A stretch of 64,000 nucleotides of DNA. Origin: Gemmatimonadota bacterium (GTDB taxonomy: Bacteria; Gemmatimonadota; Gemmatimonadetes; Longimicrobiales; Gaopeijiaceae). A model generated the notes under the pieces. The model was not told where the DNA came from. It was given only the letters and a program-made list of their open reading frames with translations, and ran no database searches. Location of the stretch: the NCBI GenBank assembly GCA_007126575.1, contig SLBA01000091.1, positions 1 to 64,000 on the forward strand, read 5' to 3'. Every line of letters begins with the position of its first letter. The stretch's first letter is position 1. Below are positions 35,040-35,104 of this stretch, piece by piece. Both the position numbers and the translations under genes were made by a program.

Positions 35040-35104
35040 AACATAGGGGTGCTCGAAGGGATGTGTCAAGAAAGTTTGACGTCAAGGCGACGAGACAGTA
35101 TTAA
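35040..35104. promoter_or_regulatory. Divergent bchF/aerR promoters sharing one PpsR-type operator
   Basis: On the minus strand, TTGACA (35069-35064) and TATGTT (35045-35040) are 18 bp apart, driving bchF. On the plus strand, TTGACG (35076-35081) and TATTAA (35099-35104) are 17 bp apart, driving aerR-ppsR. The palindrome TGTCAAGAAAGTTTGACG (35064-35081, TGT-N12-ACG) is exactly bounded by the two -35 boxes, so one bound dimer would cover both promoters. A second, overlapping TGT-N12-ACG match exists on the minus strand at 35097-35080. Confidence 0.82.

Follow-up and report, generated by a model that had tools for sequence, protein, structure and literature searches.

An overlapping pair of predicted PpsR boxes between bchF and aerR in a Gemmatimonadota photosynthesis gene cluster

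Much of the operator work on PpsR stems from Rhodobacter and describes two layouts, with boxes either 8 nt or far apart. The R. capsulatus bchC operator consists of two TGT-N12-ACA palindromes separated by 8 nt and positioned on the −35 and −10 elements (PMC5362033, PMC9144470). Likewise, tandem PpsR boxes lie on promoters of Congregibacter litoralis and Rubrivivax (PMC2654016, PMC4452267); the distance between boxes governs cooperativity and redox response in Rubrivivax, whose PpsR also binds degenerate TGT-N12-ACG and cGT-N12-ACA boxes (PMC4452267). For the divergent bchF/ppaA genes of Dinoroseobacter shibae, PpsR boxes were located on the bchF −35 and −10 elements, with repression evidenced by a bchF-lacZ fusion and a ppsR mutant (PMC10890935). 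Within the Gemmatimonadota, the photosynthesis genes of Gemmatimonas phototrophica were reported to be hardly oxygen-responsive, with a transient dip of the bch operons in light and unchanged ppsR/ppaA levels, and one PpsR site was reported in the cluster, before bchID (PMC11406998).

The gap between bchF and aerR in the window, the 64-kb stretch of Gemmatimonadota DNA analysed here at its full length, resembles the R. capsulatus bchC operator in its box type, in PpsR/CrtJ as the predicted binder and in the position of the boxes over a promoter. Exactly the 26-bp layout of R. capsulatus recurs at bchC and bchG of the window. In contrast, the boxes between bchF and aerR, at a spacing of 16 bp, overlap by 2 bp, have half-sites in common and face two divergent promoters, compared with spacers of 7–9 nt in Congregibacter litoralis and Rubrivivax. 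Since linked boxes are typically 8 nt apart, or occur as two distant boxes, this 2-bp overlap marks the element as a variant rather than a plain PpsR/CrtJ operator. The locus shares with D. shibae the same genes back to back and PpsR boxes at the bchF promoter, whereas four separate potential boxes were reported there, a comparison drawn from the published description (PMC10890935).

G. phototrophica (locus L021; genome G039) matches the window in gene arrangement and contains the composite TGTCAAGAAGACTTGACG-TACACTTTTCTTGACA in its bchF/aerR gap. It also contains a near-perfect box, TGTCCAGTTTAGTTGACA, just past the end of ppsR (L129:5478-5495) and about 2.6 kb from the composite, a placement like that of the window's bchG boxes. 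The text of the G. phototrophica paper mentions neither the ACG-ended composite nor TGTCCAGTTTAGTTGACA (PMC11406998); the composite was probably passed over owing to its inner ends, which are ACG/CGT and not ACA/TGT. Based on conservation and sequence layout, we consider the element a likely composite PpsR operator of ancestral origin, passed on together with the photosynthesis gene cluster; PpsR bound to it would cover the bchF −35 box and lie within or next to the aerR promoter.

The 34-bp element and its genes

The genes and predicted PpsR boxes of the window are as follows.

34401–34985, minus strand: bchF (TIGR02020, PF07284), first gene of bchFNBHLM-lhaA-puhABC-orf-acsF
35186–36112, plus strand: aerR (ppaA), cobalamin-binding PpsR partner with B12-binding Pfam domains, adjoining ppsR
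36109–37602, plus strand: ppsR, predicted binder of the element (TIGR02040, HTH_8 of Fis type)
35064–35097, unstranded: predicted composite PpsR operator, TGTCAA-N6-TTGACGTCAA-N6-(GA)GACA, two TGT-N12-ACA-type boxes with 2-bp overlap
35064–35081, unstranded: box 1, TGTCAAGAAAGTTTGACG (TGT-N12-ACG)
35080–35097, unstranded: box 2, CGTCAAGGCGACGAGACA (CGT-N12-ACA)
9549–9592, unstranded: bchC tandem PpsR boxes (9549–9566 and 9575–9592), 26 bp apart
37653–37696, unstranded: bchG tandem PpsR boxes (37653–37670 and 37679–37696), 26 bp apart

The names bchF, aerR and ppsR, assigned in a preliminary description of this DNA, were confirmed by the family and domain assignments. PpsR scored 433.7 bits against TIGR02040 (cut-off 275.4) and comprises PAS and HTH_8 domains; for AerR, PF02607 exceeded its cut-off and PF02310 fell slightly below (31.7 vs 32.1 bits). 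The aerR gene directly precedes ppsR with a 4-bp overlap. On the other side, the bch–puh run extends from 34985 to 20901 on the minus strand, amounting to 14.1 kb in line with the 14 kb given before, and presumably forms one transcript (puhA and puhC are named by position and sequence only). The run is closed by acsF (20901–21959), whereas a position of acsF between bchM and lhaA has been described as an invariable feature of Gemmatimonadetes clusters (PMC7844134). No structured RNA family was found in the leaders.

The 18-bp palindrome TGTCAAGAAAGTTTGACG, highlighted in the preliminary description, is present at 35064–35081 and shares the top PpsR-like 18-mer score of the 64-kb window with a bchC box, as judged by a plain consensus score. 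Pattern searches, on which all genome-wide motif counts given here are based, yielded a single match to TGTCAA-N6-TTGACG in the 3.68-Mb genome. The palindrome had been taken for a single box, set apart from bchC and bchG, which do carry tandem boxes, as had been implied, at 26 bp in both cases. This proved wrong: a second PpsR-type box, CGTCAAGGCGACGAGACA, starts 16 bp downstream of box 1 and overlaps it by 2 bp, and with it falls the argument for a different affinity or threshold. A box of this score follows only one of the 1112 ACG trinucleotides of the window. The single-box reading was dropped as the partner at +16 also occurs in relatives, where box 2 is usually better, ending in TTGACA at its outer side, at the same 16-bp spacing.

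Together, both boxes build a 34-bp form, TGTCAA-N6-TTGACGTCAA-N6-(TT)GACA, whose last arm is reduced to GAGACA in the window. The box centres are 16 bp apart and have their common centre at the shared CG. Measured against TGT-N12-ACA, the cores of box 1 (TGT-N12-ACG) and box 2 (CGT-N12-ACA) each combine one exact with one degenerate half-core, and the same half-sites make up the boxes at bchC and bchG in this cluster. Two other candidates were discarded. The palindrome TTGGCGCCAA (35034–35043) is taken as a chance occurrence, because its conservation stops at the closest relative. FNR-type sites have the form TTGAT-N4-ATCAA, a spacing that does not match the element.

Occurrence of the composite and association with ppsR

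We searched 395 Gemmatimonadota genomes and obtained a bchF match in 43, in one case a weak one. Wherever both genes were resolved (41 loci), bchF and aerR were divergent, and the composite was found in the gap of 36 of these loci (6/7 in the window's family, 30/34 in others), including G. phototrophica (G039) and G. groenlandica (G074). The exact 34-bp pattern occurred in 29 of the 395 genomes, compared with none for the reversed control, and 28 of the 29 contained bchF. Across the phylum, the columns of the element carry 1.4–1.6 bits vs 0.3–0.8 bits for the flanks, with the inner arms TTnACGTnnA conserved as strongly as the outer ones. The composite was absent from five loci (L035, L039, L040, L041, L042), four of which retain a single good box, while L042 exhibits a pair shifted by 1 bp. 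For L035, L040 and L041, one near-perfect box TGTCAAG(C/G)AAANCTGACA was observed between bchF and aerR. An intact 34-bp element with aerR-ppsR was also seen in a genome in which bchF was not found (G331; L158, C2:141500-147500), its place being occupied by an ABC-transporter-like gene; this locus may be what remains after phototrophy was lost or rearranged.

Outside the phylum, the composite lies between bchF and aerR in 67 of 85 proteobacterial loci, with orders assigned from the record titles. It was found throughout the Sphingomonadales (41/41) and the Rhodospirillales plus Acetobacterales (5/5), in 8/10 Betaproteobacteria, 3/5 Gammaproteobacteria and 2/2 unassigned loci, and in 8/16 Hyphomicrobiales at the strict threshold or 15/16 loosely. 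The six loci from the Rhodobacterales, to which the model species belongs, lacked it (0/6) and showed mostly separate boxes about 140 bp apart. Simulated sequences yielded no composite (0/1700). Among 101 non-redundant loci, 72 box pairs were spaced by 16 bp, with every other spacing represented at most four times. Overlapping boxes constitute a third layout, which appears widespread and is probably ancestral at bchF/aerR, and which is absent from the Rhodobacterales examined.

The presence of ppsR provides a further handle. Within the Rhodospirillales, the order of Roseospirillum, a PpsR pair was detected at bchF in 16/16 genomes with both ppsR and bchF, 13 of them at 16 bp (composite) and three at 26 bp in a similar place. 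By comparison, six of the seven bchF genomes without detectable ppsR had no box; in the seventh the contig stops about 1.6 kb from bchF, and ppsR could lie beyond. An exact test of this association gave Fisher p = 7e-5, a value that overstates independence, because the genomes lacking ppsR fall into just two clades.

The redox cysteine of PpsR

One codon of the predicted binder deserves separate mention.

37474–37476, plus strand: ppsR codon 456, Phe at the position of the HTH redox Cys of proteobacterial PpsR/CrtJ

The Cys in the HTH that characterizes redox-sensing PpsR/CrtJ is thus replaced by Phe456 in the window. The same position is Phe in 16/16 Gemmatimonadota loci (the window, L129, L132, L133, L158 and L032–L043 among those checked) vs Cys in 78/79 proteobacterial loci; the aligned Cys is equated with C420 of CrtJ by its place in the HTH alone, the R. 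capsulatus sequence not being part of the comparison. The PpsR of the window contains one Cys in all, Cys 402, rendering a disulphide of the C249–C420 type impossible within one chain. No mention of a Cys-to-Phe change in Gemmatimonadota PpsR was found in the literature searched. The loss agrees with the reported insensitivity of G. phototrophica expression to oxygen, and the exchange is a possible, and testable, reason why the transferred photosynthesis genes ignore oxygen in this phylum. As the Cys is missing throughout the phylum sample, the switch would probably respond to AerR and to light or metabolic state more than to oxygen.

Following this line, the element might be a PpsR site that works in purple bacteria and has become a relic in the Gemmatimonadota, whose PpsR would have lost its redox Cys and exert weak control. 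The consistent Phe, the minimal regulation reported for G. phototrophica (PMC11406998) and the approximately 60-fold weaker DNA binding of CrtJ C420A (PMC9144470) agree with this possibility. However, ppsR has been kept and its HTH is intact, both boxes are preserved across families with diverged flanks, and the genome without a detected bchF has kept the element along with aerR-ppsR. Moreover, G. phototrophica and G. groenlandica have strong tandem boxes before crtB as well, so that we regard a relic as unlikely.

These tandem boxes are 25 bp apart and directly precede a crtB-like gene (L130:2572-2614 in G. phototrophica, L131:2854-2896 in G. groenlandica), which was named by eye as phytoene-synthase-like from its sequence and lies away from the bchF locus, suggesting a distant carotenoid operon under PpsR control.

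Promoter geometry and a model for the switch

The following promoter elements were located in and next to the composite.

35064–35069, minus strand: −35 box of the predicted bchF promoter, TTGACA, formed by the element's outer left arm
35040–35045, minus strand: −10 box of the predicted bchF promoter, TATGTT, spacer 18; A2 and T6 in 5/5 family members
35076–35081, plus strand: candidate −35 box of aerR, TTGACG (inner arm); if used, only in the window's family
35099–35104, plus strand: candidate −10 box of aerR, TATTAA, spacer 17; TATT kept in the family, final T absent
35092–35097, plus strand: outer right arm GAGACA; TTGACA and aerR −35 box in other Gemmatimonadota

For bchF, TTGACA-N18-TATGTT on the minus strand (35069–35040) is a promoter candidate whose pattern TTGACA-N18-TAnnnT recurs in 5/5 members of the window's family and, as TTGACA-N17-nAnnnT, in 16/20 other Gemmatimonadota. 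The element overlaps this predicted sigma70 promoter of the photosynthesis operon, covering its −35 box. On the aerR side, the outer right arm of other Gemmatimonadota reads TTGACA-N17-nAnnnT in 19/20 cases; there, each of the two promoters has its −35 box in one outer arm of the 34-bp element.

The window's family differs on the aerR side. TTGACG-N17-TATTAA is found on the plus strand at 35076–35104, exactly as the preliminary description gave it, and the TATT located 17 nt past the inner TTGACG is invariant in the family, with the hexamer lacking the final T in 5/5. In the outer right arm the GACA core is invariant, the TT of the −35 box is gone and the flanks have diverged. This arm was rejected as aerR −35 box in the window's lineage, with no −10 box at 15–18 nt in the five family members, as was a second aerR promoter (TTGACC-18-TACGAT, 35158–35187) that runs over the start codon. 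No alternative aerR promoter common to the family was found. A CATTAT/CAGTAT −10 box lies at N14 from the inner arm with A2 and T6 in 5/5, a spacer too short for sigma70.

The proposal that one palindrome supplies the −35 boxes of both promoters consequently stands for bchF, where the promoter is conserved, and is weak for aerR, where the −10 box lacks its final T and the outer arm is used elsewhere. With the outer arm devoid of its TT and of a following −10 box, and with the incomplete TATT hexamer, the shared-palindrome arrangement is plausible for the window's family only. The preliminary description had named the right place and regulator; it missed box 2 and overstated the aerR promoter. 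Its stricter version, in which one PpsR box alone provides both −35 boxes with its two arms and acts as a one-repressor switch, is very unlikely: the score of box 1 is unsurpassed in the window and the TATT is kept 17 nt after the inner TTGACG, whereas in two phyla a box 2 recurs at the identical +16 spacing, the GACA core of box 2 does not vary within the family despite diverging flanks, and the aerR −10 box is incomplete. That the conservation merely reflects two back-to-back sigma70 promoters with PpsR uninvolved is scarcely credible, for although most loci have their −35 boxes in the outer arms, the inner arms, dispensable as −35 boxes there, are conserved like the outer ones, the window's family retained GACA after losing the −35 TT, and the six ppsR-less Rhodospirillales genomes have bchF and lack the element.

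The sequences show the element, how well it is conserved, how the promoters are arranged around it and that it goes together with ppsR; from this we infer that PpsR would bind here, repress the photosynthesis genes and regulate its own operon. The two Fis-type boxes overlap on the shared CG at 16 bp, about one helical turn tighter than the classical 26-bp tandem. PpsR on either box would cover or abut the bchF −35 box as well as the aerR promoter, and by doing so should lower transcription of the 14-kb bch–puh operon and, less surely, of aerR-ppsR. The weak responses and the unchanged ppsR/ppaA levels reported for G. phototrophica, which carries the composite, speak against this (PMC11406998). 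In most Gemmatimonadota each promoter would take one outer arm as its −35 box; in the window's family the aerR promoter has probably shifted 16 bp inward to the inner arm and would be weaker.

The CG step belongs to both inner arms, and the half-sites meeting there may not be filled simultaneously; this overlap points to exclusion or to a special tetramer. A tentative and on balance doubtful extension is that mutually exclusive occupancy, or such a tetramer, lets PpsR on box 1 or box 2 choose between the bchF and aerR promoters, an ancestral purple-bacterial toggle lost in the order of Rhodobacter and rendered oxygen-blind in the Gemmatimonadota by the loss of the HTH Cys. Such a toggle would balance pigment synthesis against the repressor–antirepressor pair. 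The fixed difference between 16 and 26 bp, one helical turn, makes it possible to test directly how dimers or tetramers of PpsR are seated on DNA. In one Rhodospirillales clade (L144, L148, L152) the 16-bp composite is replaced by a 26-bp tandem upstream of bchF, equivalent to a naturally occurring insertion of roughly one helical turn.
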